From positions 2,719,043-2,783,042 of the forward strand of contig CP129469.1 in NCBI GenBank assembly GCA_030583665.1: a DNA stretch of 64,000 nucleotides, in the 5' to 3' direction. This document shows, piece after piece, positions 23,532-42,255 of the stretch (positions are counted from its first letter, which is position 1; the number at the start of each line of letters is the position of its first letter). The notes below the pieces were generated by a model. That model saw only the letters and a program-made list of their open reading frames with translations, searched no databases and was not told the origin of the DNA. The translations under genes were made by a program, and so were the position numbers. The stretch is from Candidatus Jettenia sp. AMX2 (lineage in GTDB: Bacteria; Planctomycetota; Brocadiia; Brocadiales; Brocadiaceae).

Positions 23532-23676
23532 TACTAACCCCCAAAATAGAACAACCTGCACTTACAACAAAAAAGAGATCGTCAAAAAAATACCTGTTAA
23601 AAGCAATGGTCATGAAGCGCATGTAACTCAAAAACAAAATTTCCAACTTTTCTCCTCTCTCAATTTTATCAAGAAA

Positions 23677-25392
23677 CTAAAATCTTTCATAAATCATCTT
23701 TGGAATTGCATAGGTACGATTTTTCAAGACAACACCAATCAGATTGGCCTTTTTATGTTTTAAAGGTGAAATCAGTGTTTTAATCGTATGATGACGGGTC
23801 TTCCCCTCATTGATAACAAGGGCAACCCCATCCAGGTGCGGGCTAAGGACGCAGGCATCTTTAAAGTTCTTTAAGCTTGCATAATCAACGAGAACAAACT
23901 CATACTCTTCTTTGGCGATCTTCATTACATTAAGCATGCTGGTAGAATCCAAAAGCGGGGTAGGATTCAACGAAGTGCTACCTGAAGGCAATACCGTTAA
24001 ATTTGAACTTATAACCCGAACCGCTTTTTCCAAGGGTATCTTCCCTTCGAGCACGTTTGCAAGGCCCCCATTCTCCGAAATATTAAAAAGCCTGTTGATT
24101 TTTGACGGAGACCTTAAGTTCACATCAATTACCATCACCTTATGACCAGCCTTGTTTGATAGAAAATTCGCAATATTGGCAGTAATGCTGGAAGATCCGT
24201 CTGACGGCGAAGCTGCAGTTATCAAAACGGATTTCAGGTTTTTGTCCTTCATTAAGAGATAGAGCTGATCAGAAAGGTTCTGATAGGGTTGAAGCAATGA
24301 AGCATTCCTCTTTGAGTCTTTAATCAGTACGCCATCCCTAAACCCCTTTTTGGGTATGCAGCCCAAGAGCGGCAAGTTGAGAAATGTCTCTACATCCTGT
24401 GGAGATTTAAATGTATGATCTATATACTCAAAACCAAAGGCAAGAATAACCCCTAAAAACAGACTCATGCTGATGGCAAGCGGCAGCATAACCTGTTTGC
24501 TCCTACCAATTGGTTGAGAGGGTACTTTGGCCTGCTCAATAATCTTGACACTTGCGGGACCAATCGCCTCTATCGCCGGAAGTGTCCCTCCGGTAAGGTT
24601 TCTGGTCATCTGATCGATCGCATTTTCTAATTGCACTATAACGGGGTGTTTTTCTCCATATTGCAACTGGAATTCCGCCATTTGCTGTTCCAGATCAAAA
24701 ATAACATAGGAACGGCTCACTACGTTGGCAATCGTTGCAGCCGCAATGGGACTAAAGTCCCTGACATTTATGGTAAACAAATCCGTATTTTCTATTGGTA
24801 TTACCTCAATCCTGCTTCTTAACCCTTCAACTGCCCACCGGAAGGCATCTGACTGCCATGATACTTCTCCCCCATCATATAATTCCGTACCATGCATTCC
24901 GCCTCCGGAAAGAGATGTTTGTTCTTTTTCGGGTTCAATATGTACCGGATCGGCCTCTCCTTCAGAAATACTTCTTCTCAAATCTGTTAGCCAGGCAGTA
25001 ACACGCGCCGGATCAACCTGCTTTTTCGCCATGCTTCGTCTTAAATCTATCCACCAGGCCTTAAGCGGAGAGCAAAAATATTTTTCATAATCGGACGGGC
25101 GTTCGTCGAGTTTAAGCGTCCTGACGGCACGTTCAATTACCGGGTTTGATACCACGATCTCACTCTGTGTAGTAGTTATCTTTCCACCGCGGCCCAGCCG
25201 GGTATAATAAGGAGATATGGTAGGTTTTTCTGCCGTAATAAGCATTTTCACCTGGGATTCATACATCGGCGTCTTAAGTTCCAGCCCGATGATGGTAACC
25301 ACTATTACGGTAATAAATGTAGTTATTATAATTGCCTTATGCCTGAATATAATCCTTAAATAATCCCGTAAGGTACTTCCTGGTAGATTCAA
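23677..25392 (-). CDS. Wzc-like polysaccharide co-polymerase with degenerate tyrosine-kinase domain
   Basis: 571 residues. The start is TTG with a strong AGGAGG eight bases upstream. A Wzz-type chain-length domain (membrane helix at about 14-35, periplasmic region, second helix at about 300-325) precedes a cytoplasmic BY-kinase-like domain. In active BY-kinases the P-loop reads G-x-G-K-S/T; here residues 395-404 read SPSDGSSSIT, without the lysine. The second Walker-like strand is VMVIDVNLRSP, with Asn where an acidic residue is usual. The C-terminus has only two tyrosines and no tyrosine cluster. It probably still controls polymer length together with the Wza-like protein 13 bases upstream, but is unlikely to phosphorylate by the standard mechanism. 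Confidence 0.85.
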   Translation of the reverse strand: MNLPGSTLRDYLRIIFRHKAIIITTFITVIVVTIIGLELKTPMYESQVKMLITAEKPTISPYYTRLGRGGKITTTQSEIVVSNPVIERAVRTLKLDERPSDYEKYFCSPLKAWWIDLRRSMAKKQVDPARVTAWLTDLRRSISEGEADPVHIEPEKEQTSLSGGGMHGTELYDGGEVSWQSDAFRWAVEGLRSRIEVIPIENTDLFTINVRDFSPIAAATIANVVSRSYVIFDLEQQMAEFQLQYGEKHPVIVQLENAIDQMTRNLTGGTLPAIEAIGPASVKIIEQAKVPSQPIGRSKQVMLPLAISMSLFLGVILAFGFEYIDHTFKSPQDVETFLNLPLLGCIPKKGFRDGVLIKDSKRNASLLQPYQNLSDQLYLLMKDKNLKSVLITAASPSDGSSSITANIANFLSNKAGHKVMVIDVNLRSPSKINRLFNISENGGLANVLEGKIPLEKAVRVISSNLTVLPSGSTSLNPTPLLDSTSMLNVMKIAKEEYEFVLVDYASLKNFKDACVLSPHLDGVALVINEGKTRHHTIKTLISPLKHKKANLIGVVLKNRTYAIPKMIYERF

Positions 25393-25404
25393 CTCTGTAT
25401 CCTC

Positions 25405-26256
25405 CTAAAGAATGCCTTCTGATACTATTACGATATCTCCCGATTCTAAACGGACATCTTTGCCAATATCACCTCTCATGGCGCTTCTCATATCCACCAC
25501 GATATTTTCATATTCCGTTTTGTTCGGAACGGTCCGCAATATTCTCACCCGGCTAGGAGAACCATATTTCGTAAATCCACCGGCAAAGGATATCGCCCTC
25601 AGGACAGTCATATTATCCTCAAGCGCAAATTTACCGGGCCTGGCAACTTCACCATAGACAAAAAACTCTTTGTTGCGTTCAACAACGATGATATCCTCAT
25701 CCTCAACAGGCACATCACCGTTCATATGACTGAGCATTGTATTTCTGAGATCAATATCGATTTCTCTATACCCGCGTCCGCCCTTCTGTTGCCGTCTTAG
25801 TTTTATCCTGCCATAAAGACCATCAGGAGTAATACCCCCTGCCGTTGAAATAGCCTTTATCACGGTCATGTAGCCTTCCAGGGTATACCTTCCCGGACTT
25901 CTCACCTCACCATATACATAGAATTTCATACTCTCAAACTTTGACATGGTAACAGATACCACGGGGTGTTTTATGTAACTGGAGAGCCTGTTTGTAATCT
26001 CATTCTTTACCTCTGCCAAGGTTAAATCCTTTACTTTAATCGTGCCAATGTAAGGAAAAGATATTGAACCATCTGAAGTAACAGGCGCTTTGGTCATAAG
26101 CTCACTATGATTCAGCACACTTATATCAAGCACGTCTCCAAAGCCAACTTTATATTGCCGTTGCTCGTCTCCCCTAAGTTCATAAGTATAACCTGGCAGG
26201 AAAGCTATAAAGACAGTAAGGTATATGAATACAACCGTAAATATTTTTTTTATCAT
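25405..26256 (-). CDS. Wza-like polysaccharide export protein with SLBB domains
   Basis: I take the internal Met of MIKKIFTVVFIYLTV as the start because AAGGTGG lies just upstream; the open frame extends 17 codons further. It has a signal peptide (about 20 residues). The Poly_export domain begins YKVGFGDVLDISVLNHSEL and continues to VSVTMSKFES. Two SLBB units follow: KFYVYGEVRSPGRYTLEG and FFVYGEVARPGKFALEDN, each leading into an A-I-S-x-A-GG loop. No lipobox cysteine is evident, unlike E. coli Wza. The family forms the outer-membrane channel for capsule or exopolysaccharide. First gene of the 12-26 kb minus-strand cluster. Confidence 0.9.
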   Translation of the reverse strand: MIKKIFTVVFIYLTVFIAFLPGYTYELRGDEQRQYKVGFGDVLDISVLNHSELMTKAPVTSDGSISFPYIGTIKVKDLTLAEVKNEITNRLSSYIKHPVVSVTMSKFESMKFYVYGEVRSPGRYTLEGYMTVIKAISTAGGITPDGLYGRIKLRRQQKGGRGYREIDIDLRNTMLSHMNGDVPVEDEDIIVVERNKEFFVYGEVARPGKFALEDNMTVLRAISFAGGFTKYGSPSRVRILRTVPNKTEYENIVVDMRSAMRGDIGKDVRLESGDIVIVSEGIL

Positions 26257-26962
26257 CTTTGCCACCTTTTTTAATTTAGATAATATCGAAATTTCCATTT
26301 TATCCATACTGATTGGAAGTAGAACAAGTTAGGCTGCCTTTGGCAGCGACTTTTTAAATACACGACAAATGTTGGTTAAAAACAACCCCCTTACCCCTTT
26401 TATTAAGGGGGATTCAGGGGGGTTGTCTGGCATGCTATAATACAAACTTTGAAATTCCTACACATTAGGTTAAGGTATAAACCACCTTTTGGGAACCTGA
26501 AAAGCTCTGTTAAGAGCAGCATATTAACAAAATGAGAATTTTCATTCTTTGAATTGATAAAAGTACTCTTATTATCGACAACATCTGATTATTATTTATA
26601 TCTTTTCTGAAAGTTTTAAGAAATAGTTTGGGGAAAGCTTAACATATGTCAAACTTTGAGTTTTACAGGCTTGCATAGTTTGGTGCGATGTATCTATTCT
26701 TACTTGTATATAGTAGATGCTTGTATTCGTAATTATCCAGGATTTTTGATAACAAATTTAATGTATTTTATAAACATTACAAGGTAAAAACAAGCAATTT
26801 CTCGCATGTATTGAATGTAAGTGTTTCAATGAAACACCCCCCTGCCATCAAAAAATATATGAGTTTTCTGTATGAATAGAGAGATTGACGCTCTCTTGTA
26901 AACGATAACTACCGGCCGTAATAATCTATACAAGCGTCTCAATGTCTGAAATTGTCGTGTTA
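26257..26962. other. Intergenic region upstream of the exopolysaccharide operon
   Basis: About 700 bases without a gene. It holds a short hairpin (GCTGCC-TTT-GGCAGC, 26333-26347), the inverted repeat at 26381-26426 and a variant of the GAAATTCCTA(T/C)ACA motif at 26451-26464. The promoter for the export genes probably lies here, but I cannot place it with confidence. Confidence 0.4.
26381..26426. repeat. Inverted repeat ACAACCCCCTTA...TTAAGGGGGATTCAGGGGGGTTGT
   Basis: The arms AACAACCCCC and GGGGGGTTGT, together with inner CCCCTTT/AAGGGG pairs, form an imperfect hairpin. This resembles a dispersed genomic repeat rather than a terminator. Confidence 0.5.
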
Positions 26963-29900
26963 TTATTGGTTGTTAAACAAGGTCAACACTTCCTGATCGC
27001 TCAATGCACGGTTGTAGACCTGAACCTCGTCAACAATACCATCCATATGACCATAATTAGATAGTAATGCCCCTATAGCCATATAAGATGCCGCTGTATA
27101 CGGCACTATGGTATTCCCTGCAGGATGTGTTTGCGTATTTACGAGTTGCCCATCTACATATAACTTTTGTTCACCGGTGGTCTTGCTGTATGTCCCTGTA
27201 ACGTGAAACCATTTTCCCGTTGAAGTTCCCAGATTCATAATCGCATGCTTTTGAGTTTTTGTCCCACCGGATGTTTGAGTAGTTACAATAAACCGTATCG
27301 TATCTCTCGAACCGCTATACTGATTGAAATAGAGCCCATACCCTTCTACCCTGGACCAGGACCAGCCACCAAAAACAGTATCCGGCGTTGCCGTATCCAC
27401 TGAATTCCGGTAAAACCACGCTGAAACCGATATCTCGTCATAGTTTAATGGGGGGACTGATACATAATTACTCGTACCGTTAAAACTTAATGCACCCCCG
27501 ATCTTGCCCGTTGTCCAGGTAGCTCCATGAATGGTACCATTCCGGTTATTCCCTGATGAATCCGTTGCGACTGTTCCCGTCCCTTCATCAAATTTGTAAT
27601 ATGCCTGCAGACCGCTCATGACGCCATCCGCTGCAGTGGTAAAGCCCCAGGTGTAATCGGCCATCATTGCGTTACCAGCCAGATCCCTCACCCCTGTGGT
27701 TATCGTTGCCGTGTACGTGGTGGAGTGTGTCAGAGGGGCTGAAGGTGCAAACGTGGCTGTCGTATCGCTATACGTTACCGTACCGCCTATGTTGGATATC
27801 CCGTCATTTACCAGGAATGTTGATGTTGTTATGCTCCCTGCATCCATCGCCTCACTGAATGTCGCCATTATTACGCTATTTACCCCCACACCCGTCGCAC
27901 CATCGACAGGACTCGTTCCGATCACCTCCGGCGGCGTCGTATCAACCATAGCTGTTGTAGTAAAGCTCCAGGTGTAATTGGCCACCATCGCATTCCCTTC
28001 TACATCCCTTACTCCTGTAGTAATCGTTGCCGTGTACGTTGTAGAGTGTGCCAGGGGACCTGACGGAGTAAACGTGGCTGTCGTACCGCTGTAGGATACC
28101 GTTCCGCCTATATTGGAAATCCCGTCATTTACCAGAAAGGTGGACGTTGTTATGCTCCCTGCATCCATCGCCTCACTGAATGTCGCCATTATTACGCTAT
28201 TTACCCCCACACCCGTCGCACCATCGACAGGACTCGTTCCGATCACCTCCGGCGGCGTCGTATCAACCATAGCTGTTGTAGTAAAGCTCCAGGTGTAATT
28301 GGCCACCATCGCATTCCCTTCTACATCCCTTACTCCTGTAGTAATCGTTGCCGTGTACGTTGTAGAGTGTGCCAGGGGACCTGACGGAGTAAACGTGGCT
28401 GTCGTACCGCTGTAGGATACCGTTCCGCCTATATTGGAAATCCCGTCATTTACCAGAAAGGTGGACGTTGTTATGCTCCCTGCATCCATCGCCTCACTAA
28501 ATGTCGCCGTTATTACGCTATTTACCCCCACACCCGTCGCACCATCGGCAGGACTCGTTCCAATGACCTCCGGAGGTGTAGTGTCCGGACTTGCAGTAGG
28601 GTTAAATAAGGACAACACCTCCTGATCACTCAACGCCCGGTTAAAAATATAGACCTCGTCTATGCTTCCACGGAAGAAACCCCACGTAGCATATCTTGTC
28701 CCTATAGCCATATAATGCCGGTCCGTTAATGGCACTATCACATTCCCCGGTGGATGGGTTTGGGTATTCACCAACTGCCCATCTATATACAACTTCTGTT
28801 CTCCCGTAGCCTTGTTATAGGTGCCTACAACATGATACCAGCTCCCGTTCGAATTGGCAAAATCCCTTATTGCAGTTTTTACTGTCCTTGTCCCGCTTGC
28901 ATTCCTTGTGGCCACAATAAAACGGAGACGGTCGGGCGTAGCAGAATTAAAAAGCAAATCAAACCCTTCCTGCAATTGCACATCGGCATTCGATTTATAA
29001 CCTCCAAATATAACATGGTTCCCGGATGAGCTCTTATTGAACCATGCTGATACGGAAATCTCGTCATAATTCATGCGGGGAATTGTTACATAGTCATCTC
29101 CGTCAAAACTTAATGCACCTCCGATCTTCCCCGTTGTCCAGGTAGCGCCATGTATGGCGCCATTCCGGTTATTCCCTGATGAATCCGTTGCAACCGTCCC
29201 TGTTCCCTCATCAAATTTGTAATATGCCTGCAGACCGCTCATGACGCCATCCGCTGCAGTGGTAAAGCCCCAGGTGTAATCGGCCATCATTGCGTTACCA
29301 GCCAGATCCCTCACCCCTGTGGTTATCGTTGCCGTGTACGTGGTGGAGTGTGTCAGAGGGGCTGAAGGTGCAAACGTGGCTGTCGTATCGCTATACGTTA
29401 CCGTACCGCCTATATTGGAAATCCCGTCATTTACCAGGAATGTTGATGTTGTTATGCTGCCTGCGTCCATCGCCTCGCTAAATGTCGCCGTTATTACGCT
29501 ATTTACCCCCACACCCGTCGCACCACTGACGGGATTTGTTGAAATCACCTCCGGAGGTGTCGTGTCCGGACTTGCAGTAGGGTTAAATAAGGACAACACC
29601 TCCTGATCACTCAACGCCCGGTTAAAGACATAGACCTCGTCTATACTACCCTTAAAATACCTGTTTACCGGATCAACTGCTCTTGTTCCTATGCGTAGAG
29701 GATGGGTGCTCGTATCAAGAGAGCCGCTTGCTGCTACTGAATTAACTTCTGTCCCATTTACATACAGTTTCAATGTTGAACCATCATAAACCCCAACCAG
29801 GTGATGCCAGGCATTCAGAGACAAAACCGGTCCATAAATGGATTTCATACTCCCCCCGATTACAATCCTGGCTTCCGGTCTACTTTCCGATATAAATCCT

Positions 29901-31630
29901 AATGAATAATTATCATTGGCTAAGGTTTGATGGCGCTTGGCAATAATCTTGGAATCATTTGATTGACCCGGGGCCGTGGGATATATCCAGGCACTCACCG
30001 TAACAAAATTTACCGGGTTGAGGCTGGTGCTATTGGGTACTTCCACATAATCATTCACCCCGTCAAAGGAAAGGGCGCTGTTGATCTTGCCCGTTGTCCA
30101 CACAGGACCATTGAAAAGTGTGCCATTGTTGCCATTCCCGGAAGCATCCGCAGCGCTTGTTCCTGCACCCTCGTCAAATTTATAATATGCCTGCAGACCG
30201 CTCATGACGCCATCCGCTGCAGTGGTAAAGCTCCATACATAGTCAGCAGGCATCGCATTCCCTTCTACACCCCTTACTCCTGTAGTAATCGTTGCTGTGT
30301 ACTTTGTAAAGTGTGCCAGGGGACCTGACGGCGTAAACGTGGCTGTTGTACCGCTATACGTTACCGTACCGCCTATATTGGAAATCCCGTCATTTACCAG
30401 AAAGGTTGATGTTGTTATGCTTCCTGCGTCCATCGTCTCACTGAATGTCGCCGTTATTACGCTATTTACCCCCACACCCGTTGTTCCATTGGCAGGACTC
30501 GTACCGATTACCTCCGGCGGTGTCGTGCCTGATGTCCGGGTCGCCCTCAACATCAATGCATTAGCATAGAACTGGCCGGTTGGAGATGAAACAGTAATCA
30601 GCATATCACCATCCGCTCCAGGATTGATGTTGATGAAACGTGCAACGTACCCGTTGATGGTATTATAGCCATTCACTATCGTTACCGAGGGATCTGTCGC
30701 TCCTGAAAAAGTTGCCCCTGGCGTGCTGGCATTTGTAAATGACATAATATCCGATATAGTAGTTGTCGTCATCCGGTTGGTATAAGAGGTATTATTGCGA
30801 TTTCCGAAAAGAACAAATTCATAGTTCAAATCCGGGTCAAGACCGGTAAATGTAAAGGTAAGATTTGTAGTACTATAACTGATGAGCCCCACGCTGTCCA
30901 CTATACCATTGAAGACAGCATAAGCATCGGTACCGATGTTTGCGTTACTCCCTTGAACAGGGGTATTATTGGAATCTATGTATCCGCCGGCAATAGTCAG
31001 GGTAGCTGCTGTATTCGTACCGGAAAAGTAATCCTTTAAAAGCCCGCTCTGCCCTGTTGTATAAAGCGTGACCCTCGTATCAGCCTGCCCGGCAGACCAT
31101 GAGAGATCATTGTATGCAGTAAATACATGAGTCCCCGAAACAACTGTTACCGTCACAGTTGCCTCATTCGATATGGCCCCCTCATTGTCCTGCACGGTAT
31201 AGGTAAAGCTATCCGCCCCTACAAACCCTGTATCCGGTGTATAGGTCACGGTACCATCACTATTTGGCACCGCTGTACCATTGGAAGGATTGCTTGCAAT
31301 TACCACCGTGGCAGGGTCAATCGTACCATCGGGGTCGGTATCATTGGCTATTACGTTTATATTTACCGGCATATCCTTGCTCGTTATTGCCGCATCATTA
31401 TTGGCAACCGGTGGCATGTTGCCAATACCCCCAATGGCACTGTTCATGACAGCAAAAATATTTGTATTATCAAGGTAATTGCCGTAAACTGCGTCAGCAT
31501 CATTTCTGCGATGTGCAAATCCACTGCCCGCCAGAATGAGTAGAACAATGACAAACAACATAATTTCAAAGGGTTTTTTGAGGAATTGCTTTGCCCGTTT
31601 CTGCTGTTTGTTCCTATTGTTATACGTCAT
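26963..31630 (-). CDS. Secreted modular protein: cadherin-like domain, Big_5 repeats and LamG domains
   Basis: 1555 residues. Signal anchor at about 20-40 (LLILAGSGFA). Residues about 45-65 (AVYGNYLDNTNIFAVMNSAI) match the C-terminal tail of the alkaline phosphatase in 33274-37965, although no phosphatase domain is present here. Then comes a cadherin-like domain (NDTDPDG...VTYTPDTGFVGADSFTY), a unique domain shared with the 937-aa protein downstream of 40780, and an alternation of Big_5 domains (TTPPEVIGTSP...FSEAMDAGSITTSTF) and LamG domains (GLQAYYKFDEG...IDEVYVFNRALS). Three tandem Big_5 units are nearly identical. Last gene of the putative riboswitch-controlled operon. Likely an extracellular adhesin or matrix protein; LamG suggests glycan binding, not proven. 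Confidence 0.85.
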   Translation of the reverse strand: MTYNNRNKQQKRAKQFLKKPFEIMLFVIVLLILAGSGFAHRRNDADAVYGNYLDNTNIFAVMNSAIGGIGNMPPVANNDAAITSKDMPVNINVIANDTDPDGTIDPATVVIASNPSNGTAVPNSDGTVTYTPDTGFVGADSFTYTVQDNEGAISNEATVTVTVVSGTHVFTAYNDLSWSAGQADTRVTLYTTGQSGLLKDYFSGTNTAATLTIAGGYIDSNNTPVQGSNANIGTDAYAVFNGIVDSVGLISYSTTNLTFTFTGLDPDLNYEFVLFGNRNNTSYTNRMTTTTISDIMSFTNASTPGATFSGATDPSVTIVNGYNTINGYVARFININPGADGDMLITVSSPTGQFYANALMLRATRTSGTTPPEVIGTSPANGTTGVGVNSVITATFSETMDAGSITTSTFLVNDGISNIGGTVTYSGTTATFTPSGPLAHFTKYTATITTGVRGVEGNAMPADYVWSFTTAADGVMSGLQAYYKFDEGAGTSAADASGNGNNGTLFNGPVWTTGKINSALSFDGVNDYVEVPNSTSLNPVNFVTVSAWIYPTAPGQSNDSKIIAKRHQTLANDNYSLGFISESRPEARIVIGGSMKSIYGPVLSLNAWHHLVGVYDGSTLKLYVNGTEVNSVAASGSLDTSTHPLRIGTRAVDPVNRYFKGSIDEVYVFNRALSDQEVLSLFNPTASPDTTPPEVISTNPVSGATGVGVNSVITATFSEAMDAGSITTSTFLVNDGISNIGGTVTYSDTTATFAPSAPLTHSTTYTATITTGVRDLAGNAMMADYTWGFTTAADGVMSGLQAYYKFDEGTGTVATDSSGNNRNGAIHGATWTTGKIGGALSFDGDDYVTIPRMNYDEISVSAWFNKSSSGNHVIFGGYKSNADVQLQEGFDLLFNSATPDRLRFIVATRNASGTRTVKTAIRDFANSNGSWYHVVGTYNKATGEQKLYIDGQLVNTQTHPPGNVIVPLTDRHYMAIGTRYATWGFFRGSIDEVYIFNRALSDQEVLSLFNPTASPDTTPPEVIGTSPADGATGVGVNSVITATFSEAMDAGSITTSTFLVNDGISNIGGTVSYSGTTATFTPSGPLAHSTTYTATITTGVRDVEGNAMVANYTWSFTTTAMVDTTPPEVIGTSPVDGATGVGVNSVIMATFSEAMDAGSITTSTFLVNDGISNIGGTVSYSGTTATFTPSGPLAHSTTYTATITTGVRDVEGNAMVANYTWSFTTTAMVDTTPPEVIGTSPVDGATGVGVNSVIMATFSEAMDAGSITTSTFLVNDGISNIGGTVTYSDTTATFAPSAPLTHSTTYTATITTGVRDLAGNAMMADYTWGFTTAADGVMSGLQAYYKFDEGTGTVATDSSGNNRNGTIHGATWTTGKIGGALSFNGTSNYVSVPPLNYDEISVSAWFYRNSVDTATPDTVFGGWSWSRVEGYGLYFNQYSGSRDTIRFIVTTQTSGGTKTQKHAIMNLGTSTGKWFHVTGTYSKTTGEQKLYVDGQLVNTQTHPAGNTIVPYTAASYMAIGALLSNYGHMDGIVDEVQVYNRALSDQEVLTLFNNQ
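27925..28580 (-). repeat. Tandem 321-bp repeat encoding Big_5 domains
   Basis: The sequence around 27936 (gtcgtatcaaccatagctg) recurs at 28257, a period of 321 bases (107 codons). The two units are almost base-identical, and a third related unit lies on the left. Period is a multiple of three, so unit number can change without breaking the frame. Confidence 0.85.
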
Positions 31631-31828: not shown

Positions 31829-33217
31829 TTACGGATTAATTGCATAATTTTCAAAAAGCTCAGCCCCTGTACCCCTTGCATATAACGGAATCAGCGAATT
31901 TGTGTGACTTCCGGAATTCCAATACCAGTATACCGTCTCACCACTGTCGATTACATTGTTATTGTTTGCATCTTCCCAGCTTGCACGGCGACCACCTGTT
32001 CCAGAGACGATTTTCTCTTTGGAAAGGGTTGTAGTATTCACATTACCAAGAGGCTGGCTCGAGAGTACCCCTGGCCCAGCGGTCAGATAGCCACACTCAT
32101 GGTCAGCAGTTACCATAACCAGGGTATTGCTCCAGGTGGAATCATTGCCGGGATCGTCTACCCAGTTAGTTACCGTCTGAATAGCAGTATCAAAATCTTT
32201 CGCTTCACCGATCATCTGGTTCATATTATTTGCATGAGAAGCCCAGTCAATTGCACCCCCTTCTACCATCAGCACAAAACCGTTCGGGTTCCTGCTCAAT
32301 ACCTTTATCGCTGCCAATACACTCTCGGAAAGGGTAGGATTTTCAGTACGATACCCCGAACCATCTGCATTGTGATATACCTGAACAAATAAACCGGCTA
32401 ATTTCAACGTAGTAGAATTATTTGCTGCTGACATCAGGGCATTCCCGCCGTTAACGCCAGCCTGCCGCTCAACCAAAACATGTTTTCCAGCCTGCCCGCT
32501 TTCAGTTCTCAATTTATTCAACATCTGACTGTTTACATGATTTGCATCATGGGTACCAATTATAACATCCGCAGGAGGGATGTTTGGTCCATGGCCACCG
32601 TCATATCTTGAATGAGTAGCAACGGTACCGGTGGTATTAGGATCCCCAAAAAAACCCTCGTCTGCTATGGCAAAAGTATTTACACGGGAATCATTATGGG
32701 CTACCCATGCCCCTGGCGTGGCATGTGATACAGGGACCGAGCTAATTGAACCTACTGCCATCCCTAATATTTTCGCTATATCCACAATTGATAAAAATCT
32801 TGTACCATCCGAAGAAACGCTAATCCTTCCCACGGAAGTTTTAAAACCACAATAAATACTGGTAGCAGTGCAGGCACTATCCTGAGTGCCGGGAGTAGTA
32901 TTTACATAATTAAAGTCAGATGAGGCAAGTTCTGCATCATAACTTCCTCCTTCCGGAAAAGTGGACACCATATATTTCACCCAGGGTGGTCCTAATTGAT
33001 AGGAAGGAATTGTTCCAGTGTATTTATTTACTGCCTCGATATGCTTAACACCCCAACCATCCCCGATAAACAAAATAATATATTTCGCATTCTCACCGTA
33101 GGCATGCCCGCTGCCAGCCAGAATGAGCAAAACCATGAAAAGCAATATACTGCCTAAGGTTTTTTGGATACAGTGTCTTACCCACTTCTGGCTTCTACAA
33201 AGGGTGTTATACATCAT
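31829..33217 (-). CDS. Secreted alkaline phosphatase (PhoA family)
   Basis: 462 residues; signal peptide to about residue 39 (LLILAGSGHA-YG). The PhoA-fold active site is intact: FIGDGWG (Asp52 metal ligand), TQDSACTATS with Asp113 and the nucleophile Ser114, VEGGAIDWASHANN (Glu319, Asp324, His328), TADHE (Asp372, His373) and SGSHTNS (His438). The enzyme hydrolyses phosphomonoesters in the periplasm or outside. It ends NYAINP, where the paralogue at 33274-37965 continues into NYASNIDSVYGAYLDN and LamG modules. So this gene is a phosphatase-only version, probably cut short when its 3' part was separated. Between it and the next gene (31673-31828) I see no gene. Confidence 0.9.
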   Translation of the reverse strand: MMYNTLCRSQKWVRHCIQKTLGSILLFMVLLILAGSGHAYGENAKYIILFIGDGWGVKHIEAVNKYTGTIPSYQLGPPWVKYMVSTFPEGGSYDAELASSDFNYVNTTPGTQDSACTATSIYCGFKTSVGRISVSSDGTRFLSIVDIAKILGMAVGSISSVPVSHATPGAWVAHNDSRVNTFAIADEGFFGDPNTTGTVATHSRYDGGHGPNIPPADVIIGTHDANHVNSQMLNKLRTESGQAGKHVLVERQAGVNGGNALMSAANNSTTLKLAGLFVQVYHNADGSGYRTENPTLSESVLAAIKVLSRNPNGFVLMVEGGAIDWASHANNMNQMIGEAKDFDTAIQTVTNWVDDPGNDSTWSNTLVMVTADHECGYLTAGPGVLSSQPLGNVNTTTLSKEKIVSGTGGRRASWEDANNNNVIDSGETVYWYWNSGSHTNSLIPLYARGTGAELFENYAINP

Positions 33218-33273: not shown

Positions 33274-36200
33274 CTAGTGGTAGTAATAGTTATGAAACAA
33301 ATCCAACACCTCCTGATCACTCAAAGCCCGGTTGAAGATATGGACTTCGTCAATACTTCCACGGAAGAAACCCCACGTAGCATATCTTGTCCCTATAGCC
33401 ATATAATGCCGGTCCGTTAATGGCACTATCACATTCCCCCGTGGATGGGTTTGGGTATTCACCAACTGACCGTCTATATACAACTTCTGTTCTCCCGTAG
33501 CCTTGTTATAGGTGCCAACAACATGATACCAGCTCCCGTTCGAATTGGTAAAATCCCTTATTGCAGTTTTTACTGTCCTTGTCCCGCTTGTATTCCTTGT
33601 GGCCACAATAAAACGGAGCCTGTCGGGCGTAACAGAATTAAAAAACAAATCAAACCCTTCCTGCAATTGCAGATCGGCATTCGATTTATGACCTCCAAAT
33701 ATAACATGGTTACCGGATGAGCTCTTATTGAACCATGCTGATACGGAAATCTCGTCATAGTTTAACGGGTGAACCGACACATAATTACTCGTACCGTTAA
33801 AACTTAACGCACTCCCAAATTTCCCTGTTGTCCAGGTAGCCCCAATAATCATGCCATTCCTGTCATTCCCTGAAGAATCCGCTGCAACCGTTCCTGTCCC
33901 CTCATCAAATTTGTAATATGCCTGCAAACCACTCATAACGCCATCCGCTGTAGTAGTAAAACTCCAGGTGTAATTGGCCACCATCGCGTTACCTGCCAGA
34001 TCCCTCACCCCCGTGGTAACCATTGCCGTGTATGTCCTGGAATGTACCAGAGGACCCGACGGCGTAAACGTGGCTGTCGTACCGCTGTATGTTACCATAC
34101 CGCCTATGTTGGAAATCCCGTCATTTACCAGAAATGTTGATGTTGTTATACTCCCTACATTCATCGCCTCACTAAATGTCACCGTTATTATGCTATTTAC
34201 CGGTACCCCCGTCGCACCACTGACAGGACTTGTTCCACTCACAGTCGGTGGCGTCGTATCCGGACTCGCAGTGGTGCTAAATAAGGACTGTACCTCCTGA
34301 GCACTTAACGCACGGCTATGCACCCGAACCTCGTCAATACGGCCCTTAAAATATCTGTTTACCGGATCAACTGCCCTCGTTCCTATACGCAGAGGATATG
34401 TGCTCGTATCAAGAGAGCCACTTGCTGCTATTGAATTAACTTCTGTCCCATTTACATACAGTTTCAATGTTGAACCGTTATAAACCCCGACCAGGTGATG
34501 CCAGGCATTCAGAGACAAAACAGGTCCATAAATAGATTTCATACTCCCCCCGATTACAATCCTGGCTTCCGGTCTACTTCCTGATGTAAATCCTAATGAA
34601 TAATTATCATTTGCTAAGGTTTGATGACGTTTAACAATAATCTTGGAATCATTTGATTGACCCGGGGCCGTGGGATATATCCAGGCACTCACCGTAACAA
34701 AATTTACCGGGTTGAGGCTGGCGCTATTGGGTACTTCCACATAATCATTCACCCCGTCAAAGGAAAGGGCGCTATTGATTTTGCCTGTTGTCCACACAGG
34801 ACCATTGAAAAGTGTGCCATTGTTGCCATTCCCGGAAGCATCCGCAGCGCTTGTTCCTGCACCCTCGTCAAATCTGTAGTAGGCAAGCAAACCATCAGGA
34901 AATGCATCACTTACCGTAGTAAAACTCCAGGTGTAATTGGCCACCATCGCGTTACCTGCCAGATCCCTCACCCCCGTGGTAACCATTGCCGTGTATGTCC
35001 TGGAATGTACCAGAGGACCCGACGGCGTAAACGTGGCTGTCGTACCGCTGTATGTTACCATACCGCCTATGTTGGAAATCCCGTCATTTACCAGAAATGT
35101 TGATGTTGTTATACTCCCTACATTCATCGCCTCACTAAATGTCACCGTTATTATGCTATTTACCGGTACCCCCGTCGCACCACTGACAGGACTTGTTCCA
35201 CTCACAGTCGGTGGCGTCGTATCCGGACTCGCAGTGGTGCTAAATAAGGACTGTACCTCCTGAGCACTTAACGCACGGCTATGCACCCGAACCTCGTCAA
35301 TACGGCCCTTAAAATATCTGTTTACCGGATCAACTGCCCTCGTTCCTATACGCAGAGGATATGTGCTCGTATCAAGAGAGCCACTTGCTGCTACTGAATT
35401 AACTTCTGTCCCATTTACATACAGTTTCAATGTTGAACCGTTATAAACCCCGACCAGGTGATGCCAGGCATTCAGAGACAAAACAGGTCCATAAATGGAT
35501 TTCATACTCCCCCCGATTACAATCCTGGCTTCCGGTCTACTTCCTGATGTAAATCCTAATGAATAATTATCATTTGCTAAGGTTTGATGACGTTTAACAA
35601 TAATCTTGGAATCATTTGATTGACCCGGGGCCGTGGGATATATCCAGGCACTCACCGTAACAAAATTTACCGGGTTGATGCTGGCGCTATTGGGTACTTC
35701 CACATAATCATTCACCCCGTCAAAGGAAAGGGCGCTGTTGATTTTGCCTGTTGTCCACACAGGACCATTGAAAAGTGTGCCATTGTTGCCATTCCCGGAA
35801 GCATCCGCAGCGCTTGTTCCTGCACCCTCGTCAAATCTGTAGTAGGCAAGCAAACCATCAGGAGCAGTGGTGCTAAATAAGGACTGTACCTCCTGAACAC
35901 TCAACGCACGGCTATGCACCCGAACCTCGTCAATACGGCCCTTAAAATATCTGTTTACCGGATCAACTGCCCTCGTTCCTATACGCAGAGGATATGTGCT
36001 CGTATCAAGAGAGCCACTTGCTGCTATTGAATTAACTTCTGTCCCATTTACATACAGTTTCAATGTTGAACCGTTATAAACCCCGACCAGGTGATGCCAG
36101 GCATTCAGAGACAAAACAGGTCCATAAATAGATTTCATACTCCCCCCGATTACAATCCTGGCTTCCGGTCTACTTCCTGATGTAAATCCTAATGAATAAT

Positions 36201-37965
36201 TATCATTTGCTAAGGTTTGATGACGTTTAACAATAATCTTGGAATCATTTGATTGACCCGGGGCCGTGGGATATATCCAGGCACTCACCGTAACAAAATT
36301 TACCGGGTTGAGGCTGGCGCTATTGGGTACTTCCACATAATCATTCACCCCGTCAAAGGAAAGGGCGCTATTGATTTTGCCTGTTGTCCACACAGGACCA
36401 TTGAAAAGTGTGCCATTGTTGCCATTCCCGGAAGCATCCGCAGCGCTTGTTCCTGCACCCTCGTCAAATCTGTAGTAGGCAAGCAGGCCATCAGGTGGTA
36501 CGTTGCCACTACCGTCAATGGCACTATTCATGACAGTAAAAATATCCGTATTGTCAAGATAAGCACCGTAAACAGAATCAATATTACTTGCATAATTTCC
36601 AAAAAGCTCTGCCCCTGCTCCTCTTGCATATAACGGAACCAGCGAATTTGTGTGACTTCCGGAATTCCAATACCAATATACTGTCTCGCCGCTATCGATT
36701 ACATTGTTATTGTTCGTATCTTCCCAGCTCGCACGGCGACCACCGGTGTTTAGGACTACTTTCTCTTTGGAAAGGGTTGTAGTATTCACATTACCAAGAG
36801 GCTGGCTCGGGAATACCCCTGGCCAGGCAGTCAGATAACCACATTCATGATCAGCAGTTACAATAACCAGGGTATTGCTCCAGGTGGCATCATTGCCGGT
36901 ATCATTTACCCAGTTAATTACTGTTTGAATAGCCTTATCAAAATCTTTCGCTTCACCAATCATCTGGTTCATATTATTTGCATGAGAACCCCAGTCAATT
37001 GCGCCCCCTTCTACCATCAGCACAAAACCGTTCGGGTTCCTGCCTAATACCTTCATCGTTGCCGATACACTCTCGGAAAGGGTAGGATTTTCAGTACGAT
37101 ACCCCGAACCATCTGCATTGTGATATACGAAATTAAATAAACCGGCTAATTTCAAGGTAGAAGAATTATTCGCTGCTGACATCAGGGCATTCCCCCCACT
37201 AACACCTGTTCGCCGCTCAACCAAAACATGTTTTCCCGCCTGCCCGCTTTCAGTTCTCAACTTATTCAACATCAGACTATTCACGTGGTTCGCATCATAC
37301 GTGCCAATTATCACATCTGCAGAAGGAACGTTAGGCCCTTTACCGCCGCCATATCGTGAATGAGTAGCAACGGTACCGGTGGTATTAGGATTCCCAAAAA
37401 ACCCCTCGTCTGCTATAGCAAAGGTATTTGCGCGGGAATCATTATGGGCTACCCAAGCCCCAGGTGTGGCATGTGAAACATGGACCGAGCTGACTGAACC
37501 TACTGTCATCCCTGCTATTTTTGCTTTGTCTGCAATTGATAATAATCTTGTACCATTCGAAGTGACACAAATCCGTTCGTTGGAAGTTTTAACACCACAA
37601 TACATACTGGTAGAAGTGCAGGCGCTATCCTGAGTAGCTGGAGTTGTGTTTACATAATGAAAATTAGACCATGCCTGCCCAGTATTATATCCTCCACCTT
37701 CAGGGTAAGTGGATACCATATATTTCACCCATGGTAGCCCTGATTGATATGAGGGAACTGTTCCGGTGTATTTATTTACTGCCTCTATATGCTTAACACC
37801 CCAACCATCCCCGATAAATAAAATAATGTATTTTGCATTTCCACCGTACGCATGTCCGCTGCCAGTCAGAATAAGCAAAACCATGAAAAGCAACATATTG
37901 CCTAAGGTTTTTTGGATACAGTGTCTTACCCACTTCTGTCTTCTACAACGGGTGTTATACATCAT
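33274..37965 (-). CDS. Secreted alkaline phosphatase fused to LamG and Big_5 modules
   Basis: 1563 residues. Signal peptide to about 39; PhoA-family domain about 40-465 with the same catalytic set as its neighbour (TQDSACTSTS, VEGGAIDWGSHANN, TADHE, SGSHTNS). After the linker SVYGAYLDNTDIFTVMNSAI come LamG, LamG, Big_5, LamG, Big_5 and a second type of C-terminal LamG (GLQAYYKFDEGTG). The three central LamG units are almost base-identical, and one LamG-Big_5 block is duplicated with a 963-bp period. The start ATG lies one base after the stop of the upstream gene (TAA-A-ATG), so translation is likely coupled. LamG modules may tether the enzyme to polysaccharide or to the cell surface. Domain calls are secure; location and partner are inferred. 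Confidence 0.9.
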   Translation of the reverse strand: MMYNTRCRRQKWVRHCIQKTLGNMLLFMVLLILTGSGHAYGGNAKYIILFIGDGWGVKHIEAVNKYTGTVPSYQSGLPWVKYMVSTYPEGGGYNTGQAWSNFHYVNTTPATQDSACTSTSMYCGVKTSNERICVTSNGTRLLSIADKAKIAGMTVGSVSSVHVSHATPGAWVAHNDSRANTFAIADEGFFGNPNTTGTVATHSRYGGGKGPNVPSADVIIGTYDANHVNSLMLNKLRTESGQAGKHVLVERRTGVSGGNALMSAANNSSTLKLAGLFNFVYHNADGSGYRTENPTLSESVSATMKVLGRNPNGFVLMVEGGAIDWGSHANNMNQMIGEAKDFDKAIQTVINWVNDTGNDATWSNTLVIVTADHECGYLTAWPGVFPSQPLGNVNTTTLSKEKVVLNTGGRRASWEDTNNNNVIDSGETVYWYWNSGSHTNSLVPLYARGAGAELFGNYASNIDSVYGAYLDNTDIFTVMNSAIDGSGNVPPDGLLAYYRFDEGAGTSAADASGNGNNGTLFNGPVWTTGKINSALSFDGVNDYVEVPNSASLNPVNFVTVSAWIYPTAPGQSNDSKIIVKRHQTLANDNYSLGFTSGSRPEARIVIGGSMKSIYGPVLSLNAWHHLVGVYNGSTLKLYVNGTEVNSIAASGSLDTSTYPLRIGTRAVDPVNRYFKGRIDEVRVHSRALSVQEVQSLFSTTAPDGLLAYYRFDEGAGTSAADASGNGNNGTLFNGPVWTTGKINSALSFDGVNDYVEVPNSASINPVNFVTVSAWIYPTAPGQSNDSKIIVKRHQTLANDNYSLGFTSGSRPEARIVIGGSMKSIYGPVLSLNAWHHLVGVYNGSTLKLYVNGTEVNSVAASGSLDTSTYPLRIGTRAVDPVNRYFKGRIDEVRVHSRALSAQEVQSLFSTTASPDTTPPTVSGTSPVSGATGVPVNSIITVTFSEAMNVGSITTSTFLVNDGISNIGGMVTYSGTTATFTPSGPLVHSRTYTAMVTTGVRDLAGNAMVANYTWSFTTVSDAFPDGLLAYYRFDEGAGTSAADASGNGNNGTLFNGPVWTTGKINSALSFDGVNDYVEVPNSASLNPVNFVTVSAWIYPTAPGQSNDSKIIVKRHQTLANDNYSLGFTSGSRPEARIVIGGSMKSIYGPVLSLNAWHHLVGVYNGSTLKLYVNGTEVNSIAASGSLDTSTYPLRIGTRAVDPVNRYFKGRIDEVRVHSRALSAQEVQSLFSTTASPDTTPPTVSGTSPVSGATGVPVNSIITVTFSEAMNVGSITTSTFLVNDGISNIGGMVTYSGTTATFTPSGPLVHSRTYTAMVTTGVRDLAGNAMVANYTWSFTTTADGVMSGLQAYYKFDEGTGTVAADSSGNDRNGMIIGATWTTGKFGSALSFNGTSNYVSVHPLNYDEISVSAWFNKSSSGNHVIFGGHKSNADLQLQEGFDLFFNSVTPDRLRFIVATRNTSGTRTVKTAIRDFTNSNGSWYHVVGTYNKATGEQKLYIDGQLVNTQTHPRGNVIVPLTDRHYMAIGTRYATWGFFRGSIDEVHIFNRALSDQEVLDLFHNYYYH
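33952..35877 (-). repeat. Two tandem 963-bp units (Big_5 plus LamG)
   Basis: The sequence starting at about 33952 recurs at about 34915 with almost no differences (period 963 bases, 321 codons). A further LamG copy without the Big_5 part follows at 35880-36490 at a spacing of 633 bases. The near identity implies recent duplication or gene conversion. Confidence 0.85.
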
Positions 37966-37966: not shown

Positions 37967-40780
37967 TTATTTGTCCAGCCTTTCCGTCAATTCAAAAGCT
38001 GGTATAAAAGAAAAACTGTCACTGTTTATATCGTCATTCCATCCTTCAACTGCCAGGAGATTTTCTCCGGGAAACAGTTCGTCTGCAAATCCACTTATAT
38101 CAAAAAATTCTCCCGGTAAACCCGATTCATTCCGAAGAATTTCTATGCCATTAAGATACACAATGAACGGGCCGTCACAGTCAATGGATAACGTCATATT
38201 GGTAACTGCAAATGGGTTATCGACAAAGAAAGCCCTGCGTACATGAACAGTTAAATAATTTCCCTGCATATCTCCGAGGGTGGTCTTGTTCCTCTCACGT
38301 CCATAACCAAAACCTGAAGGACCGCTTTGCAAGATACTATCGTCAAATCCGCTTTGGTTCCATCCGGCAGGGGGAAGATCTCCTGCAAAATAGCGCCATG
38401 CATCCCCTTCCCTGATCTGTTCTTTTTTGGATAATAATGCCCGCACCTCTCCGTCATTCAATGCATGCTTGTAGATACGAACGTCATCTATACTTCCATT
38501 GAATAATCCCCAATTTGAATATCTTGTTCCTATGGCCATATAATGCCGGTCCGTTAACGGCACTATCACATTTCCCGGCGGATGTGTTTGGGTATTCACC
38601 AACTGCCCGTCTATATATAACTTCTGTTCCCCCGTAGTCTTGTTGTAGGTACCGACAACATGATACCAGTTTCCATTTGAATCGCCAAAATCCTTAAACG
38701 CCTGCTTTGTTGTCTTTATCCCGCTTGCATTCCTTGTGACCACCACAAACCGGAGTAAATCAGGCATGTCAGTATGAAAAAGCAAGTCAAATCCTTCCCG
38801 GCATTGCTCATCAGCATCCCATCTATATCCACCAAAGATAACATTGTTTCCGGATGCGTTTTTCCTGAACCACGCAGATACTGAAATCTCGTCGTAATTC
38901 ATACGGGGAATTGTTACATAACCTTTACCGTCAAAATGTAACGCACCGCCGGTTTTCCCTGTTGTCCAGGTAGCGCCAAGAATTGTACCATGCCTGTTAT
39001 TCCCTGAAGAATCCCCTGCAATTATACCCGTCCCTTCATCAAATGGATACCAGGCCTCGGCAACCCACGGATACTCATCAATAGCAGTCGTAAAGCTCCA
39101 GGCATAATACGCAGTCATCGCATTCCCCGATACATCCCTTACCCCGGTAGTTATTATTACCGTATAGTTCATACCATATGACAGAGGATTTAGCGGTGTA
39201 AAAATTGCCGTCCTATCGTCAGCCCTGTATTTTATGTCACCATCCAGAAGTATACCGTTCCTGTCACTTACCAGAAAGGTAGACCACGTTATACTGCCTG
39301 CGTCCATCGGTTTTGTAAATGACGCCGCTATCTCCTTATTATGTACGGACACCCTGGCCGCATTCCTGTCGGGATTTATTTTGTTCACCGCCGGAGGCGT
39401 CGTATCAAACATATCTTCTGTAGTAAAACTCCAGGTATAATCCGCAGGTATCGCATTCCCTATTACATCCCTTACCCCGGTAGTTATTGTTGCCGTATAG
39501 TTCGTATCATATGACAGGAGATTCGCAGGCACAAAAATGGCAGTCATACTGCCAGGATAATAAAATACTTGCCCCCCTATTGGATAGATCCCGTCATTTA
39601 CCAGAAACGTAAAACCTGTTATACTTCCTGCGTCCATTGGTTTTGAAAATGTCACCTGTATTGCACTATTTACAGGCACCCCGGTTGCATTCAGGACAGG
39701 ATTTGTTGCATTTACCCTCGGAAGCGCTGTGTCGTATGCCTGGGTTGCCCTCAGCATTAATGCGTTAGCATAAAACTGGCCGGTTGGAGACGAAACGGTG
39801 ATCACCATCTCACCATCCGCACCGGGATTAATGTTAGTGAAACGCGCAACGTACCCATTGATGGTATTATAGCCATTCACTATCGCTACCGAGGGATCCG
39901 TTACTCCGGAAAAAACAGCGCCTGGTGTGCTTGCGTTTGTAAAGGACACAACGTCCGATATGGTGGTTATCGTTACCCGGTTGGTATAAGAGGCATGATT
40001 GCGGTTCCCGAAAAGGACAAATTCATAGTCCAGACCGGGATCCAGACCGGTAAAGGCAAAAGTCAGATTTGGCCCGCTGTAACTGATAAGTCCTTCACTG
40101 TCTACAACCCCGTTAAAGACGGTATACGCATCAGTGCTGCTGTTTGCGTTACTGCCTTGAGCAGGTATTTTATAGGAGCCAATATATCCGCCGGCAACCG
40201 TCAGGGCAACAGGGACTTCCGTACCGGTAAAGTAATCCTTGAGCAGCCCGCTTTGCCCTGTAGTATAAAGCGTGATCCCTGTATCCACCTGCCCTTCAGA
40301 CCAGAAAAGATCGTTGTATGCAGTAAACACATGTATCCCGGAAACAACCGTTACCATCACGGTTGCCTCATTCGATTCCAATCCTGCATTGTTCAGCACC
40401 GTATAGGTAAAACTATCCGTTCCCTCAAATCCTGCATCAGGCGTATAGGTCACAGTACCGTCAGAATTCGATACCACAAAACCACTGGCAGGATTGTTTA
40501 TGATCTCCACCGTGGTTAGATCAATTGTGCTCTCAGAGTCCGTATCATTGGCAACAACATCAATATTTACCGGAGTATTCTCATTCGTTATGGCCCTGTC
40601 ATCGTTGGCAACAGGTGTCATGTTGCCGGTAATAACGCCATTCATTTCTGTTTCACCATGAACAAATCCATTAACAGTCAGGACAAATACAGCCAGGACA
40701 AGGAACATAATAACGCCTGAGGAATTTTGGAAAAACGGTTTCGGTCGCTTCTTTTTTTTATGAAGGGCAGTATGCATCAT
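37967..40780 (-). CDS. Secreted cadherin-like/Big_5/LamG protein with C-terminal beta-sandwich-like domain
   Basis: 937 residues. Signal anchor at about 23-42. Cadherin-like region at about 55-145 (NDTDSESTIDLTTVEI...VTYTPDAGFEGTDSFTYTV), a conserved module at about 145-345 shared with the protein at 26963-31630, two Big_5-like units (about 350-575), a LamG domain (about 580-780) and a C-terminal domain of about 150 residues beginning EGDAWRYFAGDLPPAGWNQS and ending FELTERLDK. That last domain is the main body of the 219-aa protein encoded just upstream. Starts one base after the upstream stop (TAA-A-ATG), second gene of the operon. Probable role: extracellular adhesin or matrix component. 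Confidence 0.83.
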   Translation of the reverse strand: MMHTALHKKKKRPKPFFQNSSGVIMFLVLAVFVLTVNGFVHGETEMNGVITGNMTPVANDDRAITNENTPVNIDVVANDTDSESTIDLTTVEIINNPASGFVVSNSDGTVTYTPDAGFEGTDSFTYTVLNNAGLESNEATVMVTVVSGIHVFTAYNDLFWSEGQVDTGITLYTTGQSGLLKDYFTGTEVPVALTVAGGYIGSYKIPAQGSNANSSTDAYTVFNGVVDSEGLISYSGPNLTFAFTGLDPGLDYEFVLFGNRNHASYTNRVTITTISDVVSFTNASTPGAVFSGVTDPSVAIVNGYNTINGYVARFTNINPGADGEMVITVSSPTGQFYANALMLRATQAYDTALPRVNATNPVLNATGVPVNSAIQVTFSKPMDAGSITGFTFLVNDGIYPIGGQVFYYPGSMTAIFVPANLLSYDTNYTATITTGVRDVIGNAIPADYTWSFTTEDMFDTTPPAVNKINPDRNAARVSVHNKEIAASFTKPMDAGSITWSTFLVSDRNGILLDGDIKYRADDRTAIFTPLNPLSYGMNYTVIITTGVRDVSGNAMTAYYAWSFTTAIDEYPWVAEAWYPFDEGTGIIAGDSSGNNRHGTILGATWTTGKTGGALHFDGKGYVTIPRMNYDEISVSAWFRKNASGNNVIFGGYRWDADEQCREGFDLLFHTDMPDLLRFVVVTRNASGIKTTKQAFKDFGDSNGNWYHVVGTYNKTTGEQKLYIDGQLVNTQTHPPGNVIVPLTDRHYMAIGTRYSNWGLFNGSIDDVRIYKHALNDGEVRALLSKKEQIREGDAWRYFAGDLPPAGWNQSGFDDSILQSGPSGFGYGRERNKTTLGDMQGNYLTVHVRRAFFVDNPFAVTNMTLSIDCDGPFIVYLNGIEILRNESGLPGEFFDISGFADELFPGENLLAVEGWNDDINSDSFSFIPAFELTERLDK

Positions 40781-40781: not shown

Positions 40782-41441
40782 TTAGTTACCCTGCCTTTCC
40801 GTTAATTCAAACTCCGGGGTAAAAGAAAAAGTATCACTATTAATATCGTCATTACTTCCTTCAACAGCCAATATATTTTCACCGGGAAACATTTCGTGTA
40901 TAAAACCGCTAACATCTAACGGTTCGTCCGGCAAACCCGACACGTTCCGGATAATCTCTATGCCATTAAGATAGGCAATGAACGGACCATCACAATCAAC
41001 GAACAAGGTCATATTTTTAACTGCATGTATGTTATCAATAATAAACTCCCTTCGTGTATAAACCGTTTTATATCTGCCCCGCATATCTCCCAGGGTGGTC
41101 TTATTCCTTTGTTCCAGGGTTTCCCCGTCCTTCCCCCTTGCCATTCCCTGTCCATATCCAAAACCTGACTGTCCCCTTTGCCAACTCTTATCATCAAACC
41201 CGCTTTGGTTCCATCCGGGCGGAGGTTCTTGGGGGCCTTTAAAATAACGCCACTCATCCCCTTTTCTAATCGTTACTTTTTTCTCTTTTTCATTTAAAGA
41301 AACGCTCCTGGCATACACATCCTGCATAAACAATCCGCCCATACCTAAGATGAAGCTCAAGGATATGGCCGTATAAATTACTCCGTTTAACAAAGAAGGC
41401 AACCAGCCCTTTCGCGTGTAACACTTCAATCCCTTTTTCAT
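40782..41441 (-). CDS. Secreted single-domain protein, first gene of the LamG/phosphatase operon
   Basis: 219 residues. A membrane or signal segment is at about 17-40, then a single domain of about 160 residues (KGDEWRYFKGPQEPPPGWNQ, GFDDKSWQRGQSGFGYGQ, DCDGPFIAYLNGIEIIRN, DINSDTFSFTPEFELTE). The same domain closes the 937-aa protein next to it. The pattern of a D-x-D-G-P-F-I-x-Y-LNG-x-E stretch recalls the galactose-binding or PA14-like beta-sandwich domains of secreted planctomycete proteins, but I cannot name a family. GGGGGA precedes the ATG. The gene is preceded by the predicted c-di-GMP riboswitch and a long leader (about 360 bases after the terminator). Confidence 0.75.
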   Translation of the reverse strand: MKKGLKCYTRKGWLPSLLNGVIYTAISLSFILGMGGLFMQDVYARSVSLNEKEKKVTIRKGDEWRYFKGPQEPPPGWNQSGFDDKSWQRGQSGFGYGQGMARGKDGETLEQRNKTTLGDMRGRYKTVYTRREFIIDNIHAVKNMTLFVDCDGPFIAYLNGIEIIRNVSGLPDEPLDVSGFIHEMFPGENILAVEGSNDDINSDTFSFTPEFELTERQGN

Positions 41442-41800
41442 AAATTATCCCCCATGGTTTTCTTGTTGAATGAGTTTCTTCTCTCATACATTGTTCTAAA
41501 TCTTAATATCCTTCGGTTTTACTTCAGAATGGCACAAACGCATAGGAATCTAAAGAAAAGTGCCTATACCTATTGCTCTGATGGTTTTTCCTAAGCAAAA
41601 CCAAAAATCTTTCTTTGAAATTCCCGTATTTTGAATAGACATGTATACCATTCCTCATTTCCCGATACATTGCAAGCAATAAGGGATCTATTTTCAAAAT
41701 GCTTTCATAAAGAATTATATATTATTTATGATAGTAATGTAAATACGGTAAAACGGATATACTCCAGAGAACACACCCGAAAGAGTATATCTCACGATAA

Positions 41801-41851
41801 ATAAAAAAGCCTTACTGCGAAAATATTTTCAACATCTTCGACAGTAAGGCT
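41801..41851 (-). terminator. Intrinsic terminator overlapping the riboswitch 3' strand
   Basis: On the minus strand AGCCTTACTG (41851-41842) pairs perfectly with CAGTAAGGCT (41817-41808) and is followed by TTTTTTATTT. The 5' arm is the same segment that closes P2 and P1 of the aptamer, so aptamer folding and terminator folding exclude each other. Confidence 0.8.
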
Positions 41852-41938
41852 ATCTCGTAAAAACGTTGAAGCTGTTTTCACAGCCTGACAAGACCCTTTC
41901 CTTTGCGTCCCCCGATCACTCAGGGTTTGCCTTTATCG
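41839..41938 (-). promoter_or_regulatory. Cyclic di-GMP-I (GEMM-I) riboswitch aptamer
   Basis: Minus-strand RNA from 41938 to 41839. Core GGCAAACC, then stem CCCTGA-GTGA-TCGGGG with a GNRA tetraloop (GTGA, complement of 41916-41919), then GACGCAAAG (complement of 41901-41909): this is the GEMM-I consensus P1b region in order. P2 follows: GG-x-CTTGT pairs with ACGAGA-TAG-CC, including the ATAGCC segment expected before the receptor. CGATA at the 5' end pairs with TGTCG at the 3' end as P1. The downstream terminator shares the 3' strand. Established for the family: binds c-di-GMP. Inferred here: ligand binding stops terminator formation, so this is an ON switch for the LamG/phosphatase operon. 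Region 41442-41800 beyond it is leader without a gene; 41939-42294 holds no gene either and may carry the promoter. Confidence 0.85.
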
Positions 41939-42255
41939 GATTGTTTTTGAAACATTTTATCTCAAAGTAGTTTTAATGGTAGCCTTTCCCCTTTCCAGAC
42001 TTAATTGAAAAATAAGGCTAAAACCTTGACCCCATGGCATTTCTCTTCTGGCACATTCGGATTATGGCCACGTGTACCCTGAAAATCCCTTATACTGCAT
42101 CTGGTATCCGTTTGTCAAGTATGAATTAAGGATTCGGCAACGAAGCATTCCCCTCCCTCGATGGGAGGGGCTGGGGGAGGGTGACAGAATATGGAACAGT
42201 TTTTCCCTTCTCCTCCACCGAACCTCCACCATCGAGGAGGAAAAATACCTGGCTT

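Follow-up and report, generated by a model that had tools for sequence, protein, structure and literature searches.

The window, that is, the whole 64 kb stretch of DNA analysed, comes from a complete 3.46 Mb genome that contains two PF18582 (hydrazine synthase alpha) matches. None was found in 14 control genomes (0/14), which indicates that the host is an anammox planctomycete. The two matches score equally and are located at G000:C1:383159 and 1143185. Five same-strand ORFs run along the minus strand of the window from 41441 down to 26963, three with LamG and two with alkaline phosphatase domains. Gene 1 (P0001, 219 aa; 40782–41441) encodes a secreted protein without a Pfam match, and its structure model (mean pLDDT 68, with 75–90 in the core) predicts a jelly roll that resembles, at low TM-scores, the sugar-binding domain of GH2. 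Genes 2 (P0002, 937 aa; 37967–40780) and 5 (P0005, 1555 aa; 26963–31630) encode large LamG/Ig-like proteins; the former is composed of Big_9, two Big_5 and LamG domains followed by a C-terminal copy of the P0001 domain, the latter of five Big_5, three LamG and Big_9 domains. Gene 3 (P0003, 1563 aa; 33274–37965) combines an alkaline phosphatase with four LamG and two Big_5 domains, and gene 4 (P0004, 462 aa; 31829–33217) is a stand-alone alkaline phosphatase that is 85% identical to the gene 3 phosphatase domain and retains the metal and nucleophile motifs. Genes 3 and 4 match PF00245 (175 bits against a cut-off of 24.4) and contain the active-site motifs DSAC, EGGxIDW..H, TADHE and SHT. The domain searches thus bear out the operon content described in an earlier note, which was made from the sequence alone and named five genes, LamG proteins and two alkaline phosphatases. 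Genes 1–3 are almost contiguous, with gaps of 56 nt before gene 4 and 198 nt before gene 5. Neither gap contains a terminator-like site on the operon strand, and all five genes are probably cotranscribed. Directly past the operon (17691–26307) are genes for polysaccharide export, a Wzz-like protein, a sulfotransferase, a glycosyltransferase, a Wzy-like protein and a radical SAM protein.

Upstream of gene 1, a search of the whole window against all Rfam revealed a single gathering-level match, to the c-di-GMP-I (GEMM-I) aptamer family RF01051 at 41941–41837 on the minus strand (53.2 bits, gathering cut-off 35 bits; E 1.4e-7), which spans the full model (positions 1–87 of 87). The earlier note had recognised the parts of a GEMM-I aptamer here, and every one of them is present, in order. 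The minus strand contains GGCAAACC at 41931–41924, a GNRA-capped P2 stem (41910–41925, GUGA tetraloop at 41919–41916), the GACGCAAAG core at 41909–41901 and the P3 helix (41843–41902), the limits of P2 and P3 being set by the covariance model and alignment. AUAGCC (41853–41848) forms the end of the long helix of the aptamer, and the closing P1 is short (CG/CG), with 41938–41937 paired to 41840–41839. RNA from the riboswitch region folds with a z-score of −6.3, and 0 of 200 shuffles were equally stable. A chance hairpin was ruled out by the RF01051 score, this folding z-score and the register pairing of the terminator described below.

The aptamer runs into an intrinsic terminator hairpin (41808–41851, −; −24.7 kcal/mol for the hairpin alone). 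Its lower stem, AGCCUUACUG/CAGUAAGGCU, is a perfect 10 bp helix formed by the arms AGCCTTACTG/CAGTAAGGCT (41851–41842 with 41817–41808), above which about 10 further pairs form. UUUUUUAUUU follows directly after the stem, and the U-tract, TTTTTTATTT, is located at 41799–41808. The 5′ side of the hairpin includes the P3 3′ strand (41849–41843), the ligand-pairing position (41841) and the P1 3′ strand (41840–41839). As the aptamer and the terminator need the same strand, 41851–41841, the two folds are mutually exclusive. At full length the terminator is favoured by ~25 kcal/mol in ViennaRNA, a model that takes in neither ligand nor tertiary contacts, and switching must therefore be kinetic.

To this could be added an alignment of 11 copies: that of the window, six of the same design from its own genome, two from the anammox genome H5_AMX3, one from the same-order genome G037 and one from the Nitrospirota MAG DeMMO3_26. 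The overlap of aptamer and terminator is kept in all 10 sister copies. In the true register 94.8% of terminator cells are paired, compared with at most 52.6% when the arms are slid; for the aptamer the values are 95.1% and at most 47.6%. Paired changes occur in both folds of the Nitrospirota copy, where two terminator U-A pairs are replaced by G-C and G-U, and in the aptamer a P3 A-U pair is replaced by C-G and a P2 G-C pair by C-G. These few events, found mainly in that one copy, lend support to both alternative folds but fall short of proof.

A precedent for this arrangement is the pilM riboswitch of Geobacter metallireducens, whose terminator incorporates part of the aptamer, with the ligand-pairing C sequestered in it, and which turns expression on when ligand is bound (PMC9262584). 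The window element is likewise a GEMM-I RNA whose terminator 5′ arm is the aptamer 3′ strand, with exclusive folds. Given these exclusive folds and the pilM precedent, we infer ON logic, and ligand-dependent antitermination is the best reading of the locus: the element is likely a transcriptional ON switch with the pilM layout, placed over an operon for secreted proteins and phosphatases. A cyclic dinucleotide, most likely c-di-GMP, would bind the nascent aptamer; P3 and P1 would then retain strand 41851–41841, which would block the terminator and allow polymerase to read through into an operon that encodes alkaline phosphatases besides secreted proteins of the matrix or surface. High c-di-GMP would correspond to a “biofilm state”. 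Counted against this reading are a U at the C92 equivalent, the predicted thermodynamic preference for the terminator at full length, a promoter-like site between terminator and gene 1, and a genome (G010) that has gene 1 and no detectable riboswitch.

Comparison with characterized members delineates what is particular to the window copy. Unlike pilM, which reads cGAMP, it has the G20 of the c-di-GMP subclass, a U in place of the ligand-pairing C, and LamG/phosphatase targets. It shares its aptamer architecture, G20, A47 and GNRA loop with Vc2 of Vibrio cholerae (RF01051), from which it differs in the U at C92 and in using an overlapping intrinsic terminator as expression platform. In Clostridioides difficile Cd1, too, a c-di-GMP-I aptamer is joined to an intrinsic terminator, but there the terminator forms alongside the aptamer with its ligand bound, and the switch is of the OFF type (PMC9262584). 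A similar layout is seen in the c-di-GMP-I-GGC (RF03167) copies of H5_AMX3 (L071) and G037 (L090), which, as in the window, are upstream of gene 1 and the phosphatase and use the same terminator strand. Unlike the window copy, both score best with the RF03167 model (L090 below its cut-off) and have C at position 92.

Pocket positions were assigned by alignment to the family and to Vc2, which places the equivalents of G20, A47 and C92 at 41931, 41904 and 41841 (−), respectively. The position 20 equivalent, which contacts the ligand G-alpha, is G, as in all 11 aligned copies, and the A47 equivalent, which stacks between both ligand bases, is A. The C92 equivalent, which pairs with the ligand G-beta, is C in all 10 aligned sisters and U in the window copy, a change absent from the earlier description. 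Pattern counts in 39 Brocadiales genomes gave 186 occurrences of the strand motif with C versus 3 with U. One of the three U-pattern matches is part of a G020 copy whose core differs at further positions, and the match at G005:C4:87089 was rejected as an aptamer strand, being a separate downstream terminator arm. When the aptamer fold is forced, U92 pairs with A15 in the window copy and in no sister copy. The U could also be a sequencing error, one strain having been examined. As C92 pairing is typical of RF01051 and not obligatory, the element remains a structural member of the family, while its binding of c-di-GMP becomes less certain.

Published mutants indicate what this change may do. According to PMC9049102, C92 is less conserved than A47, and mutation at G20 and C92 lowers the affinity of Vc2 for c-di-GMP; the same paper, citing Smith et al., gives the double mutant G20A/C92U a KD of 4.9 uM for c-di-GMP compared with 0.011 nM for the wild type. 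The double mutant also binds c-di-AMP (PMC7288161, PMC9049102). With U in place of C92, weaker c-di-GMP binding is expected than in the sisters, and higher c-di-GMP would be needed; an affinity below that of the sisters is likely for the window copy, and an altered ligand preference is possible. A more severe outcome would be a detuned or dead sensor, in which C92U broke or strongly weakened ligand binding and left a mostly constitutive terminator, or a mostly constitutive antiterminator if the extra A15–U92 pair lengthens P1. This would fit the predicted A15–U92 pairing, the affinity losses of the Vc2 mutants, and the U92 that is unique among the 11 aligned copies and very rare in the family. 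However, aptamer and terminator are otherwise intact, as would not be expected of a decaying element, and from a picomolar start a weakened site may still work at nanomolar to micromolar levels. We thus regard loss of sensing as unlikely, albeit worth serious consideration. A natural C92U copy provides a test of how much change the ligand pocket tolerates.

The host genome was also examined for a cGAMP signal. Cyclic-dinucleotide enzymes are represented by 11 GGDEF domains and by EAL domains, and each of the 11 GGDEF domains retains Asp where Hypr enzymes have another residue; no Hypr (cGAMP-type) GGDEF was found among the 11. On the RNA side, cGAMP-type GEMM-I (GEMM-Ib) aptamers have A at position 20, while the window copy has the c-di-GMP-type G at 41931 and G occupies this position in all 14 riboswitch copies of the genome. 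A cGAMP-type aptamer was ruled out by these two findings. A G20/A47/U92 pocket might nonetheless prefer 3′,3′-cGAMP by a route unlike the known G20A, its A pairing with U92 and its G lying on G20. U92 should pair with adenine, and G20A/C92U accepts c-di-AMP (PMC7288161, PMC9049102), so that position 92 helps to read the ligand base; yet the GGDEF-type synthases examined lack the Hypr substitution, and we consider a changed ligand very unlikely.

Antitermination would control the operon to the extent that transcription starts upstream of the aptamer. A candidate riboswitch promoter, TTGACA-N18-TATAAG (42089–42118, −; 11/12 matches), is located 177 nt upstream of the aptamer. Gene 1 starts ~360 nt downstream of the terminator, and within this gap is a second, strong promoter-like site, TTTACA-N18-TATAAT (41714–41743, −), also with 11/12 matches, neither gap nor site being mentioned in the earlier note, which makes a bypass of the riboswitch possible. 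Should the operon be transcribed mainly from 41743–41714, the effect of the riboswitch would be small. The length of the leader and the quality of the match, equalled in 1.2% of shuffled leaders, are compatible with such a bypass. In the H5_AMX3 orthologue, however, the −35 of the site is conserved and the −10 is not, while the riboswitch is; moreover, an AT-rich leader readily yields promoter-like matches, and the consensus may not be that of anammox sigma factors. A dominant downstream promoter is accordingly improbable in our estimation. Of the original proposal that c-di-GMP switches the operon on, the RNA class, the exclusive folds and, with pilM as precedent, the ON logic are supported, while normal affinity is called into question by the U at C92 and dependence on the riboswitch promoter by the downstream site.

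The phosphatase was found in no other same-family genome among those searched; its relatives occur in Nitrospirota MAGs, in H5_AMX3 and in two same-order genomes. At the majority of related loci, in Planctomycetota and in Nitrospirota, gene 1 directly precedes the phosphatase, with a gene 1 homologue immediately 5′ of it at L064, L067, both pairs of L068, L069, L070 and L087–L091. In H5_AMX3 (L071) the operon begins, like that of the window, with a complete gene 1, and the domain occurs once more ahead of the phosphatase. No gene 1 match was found at L065 or L066. As far as we have seen, the gene 1 jelly roll and the phosphatase form an undescribed two-gene pair in two phyla.

A riboswitch of the c-di-GMP-I clan precedes this pair at 4 of ~15 loci: the window, H5_AMX3, G037 and DeMMO3_26. 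The linkage thus extends to another anammox genome, a same-order genome of another family, and Nitrospirota. The riboswitch on G037 contig 1 falls below the family cut-off (52.8 versus 59 bits; E 1.3e-9). That of DeMMO3_26 is 75 nt before gene 1, and with only six RF01051 matches in 3.3 Mb this position is unlikely to be due to chance. The remaining phosphatase loci tested had no RF01051-clan riboswitch, and G010 keeps gene 1 with no riboswitch detectable; the riboswitch was therefore rejected as an obligatory partner of the phosphatase. In the phosphatase tree the window copies group apart from same-order homologues. We claim no direction of transfer, as the H5_AMX3 row is long (its assembly is frameshifted) and the root is unfixed. 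That a natural G20/A47/U92 riboswitch of altered affinity or ligand preference controls a jelly-roll/phosphatase module that moved, with its riboswitch, between Nitrospirota and Planctomycetota is a doubtful, quite unlikely conjecture. Through the recurrent linkage of riboswitch, gene 1 and phosphatase, c-di-GMP would be connected with the release of phosphate outside the cell or with mineral formation.

The literature searched, mostly outside subscription journals, contained no description of c-di-GMP riboswitches from an anammox bacterium, nor of any that controls an alkaline phosphatase. The arrangement had been called unusual in the earlier note; it is indeed absent from that literature, but it is not unique, as it recurs in three other genomes in two phyla. 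The RNA class, the ON layout and a regulon of surface genes are of kinds already known; the novelty lies in the host, in the gene pair and its repeated occurrence in two phyla, and in the naturally occurring U92. Little is known of how anammox bacteria, which grow in granules and biofilms, switch on their matrix proteins.

The host genome contains 14 RF01051 matches, 13 of them over the cut-off. Same-family relatives have from 1 to 56 copies and H5_AMX3 has 43; genomes with 20 to 56 c-di-GMP-I matches are G020, G022, G011, G016 (genus g11) and G040/H5_AMX3, compared with 17 GEMM-I riboswitches in Geobacter sulfurreducens (PMC8835794). With up to 56 copies of one riboswitch class per genome in the family, c-di-GMP sensed directly by RNA may form one of the principal layers of control. 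Other copies in the host genome are found ahead of genes for type IV pili, subtilase, LamG and GGDEF-EAL proteins, the targets of a typical c-di-GMP regulon. Approximately 6.3 kb to the right of the window, a riboswitch (L075; G000:C1:2789374-2789450) precedes a gene for a LamG/Vps10-type protein of 2299 aa. Positions 4099–8787 of the window encode a protein with domains of the same types, for which no Rfam riboswitch match was found in the window. At L080, an N-masked stretch ~0.4–1.7 kb downstream of the L007 aptamer falls in the region of the first gene. In three copies of the host genome before type IV pilus and prepilin genes (L077, L078 and L079), the 5′ arm of the terminator nearly duplicates the aptamer 3′ strand and is located downstream of it, such that aptamer and terminator can coexist, and the sign of regulation may differ from that of the window copy. 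Finally, at L076 (636–3176, +) a c-di-GMP-I riboswitch is located 38 nt before a PAS-GGDEF-EAL gene, which suggests feedback on c-di-GMP turnover.
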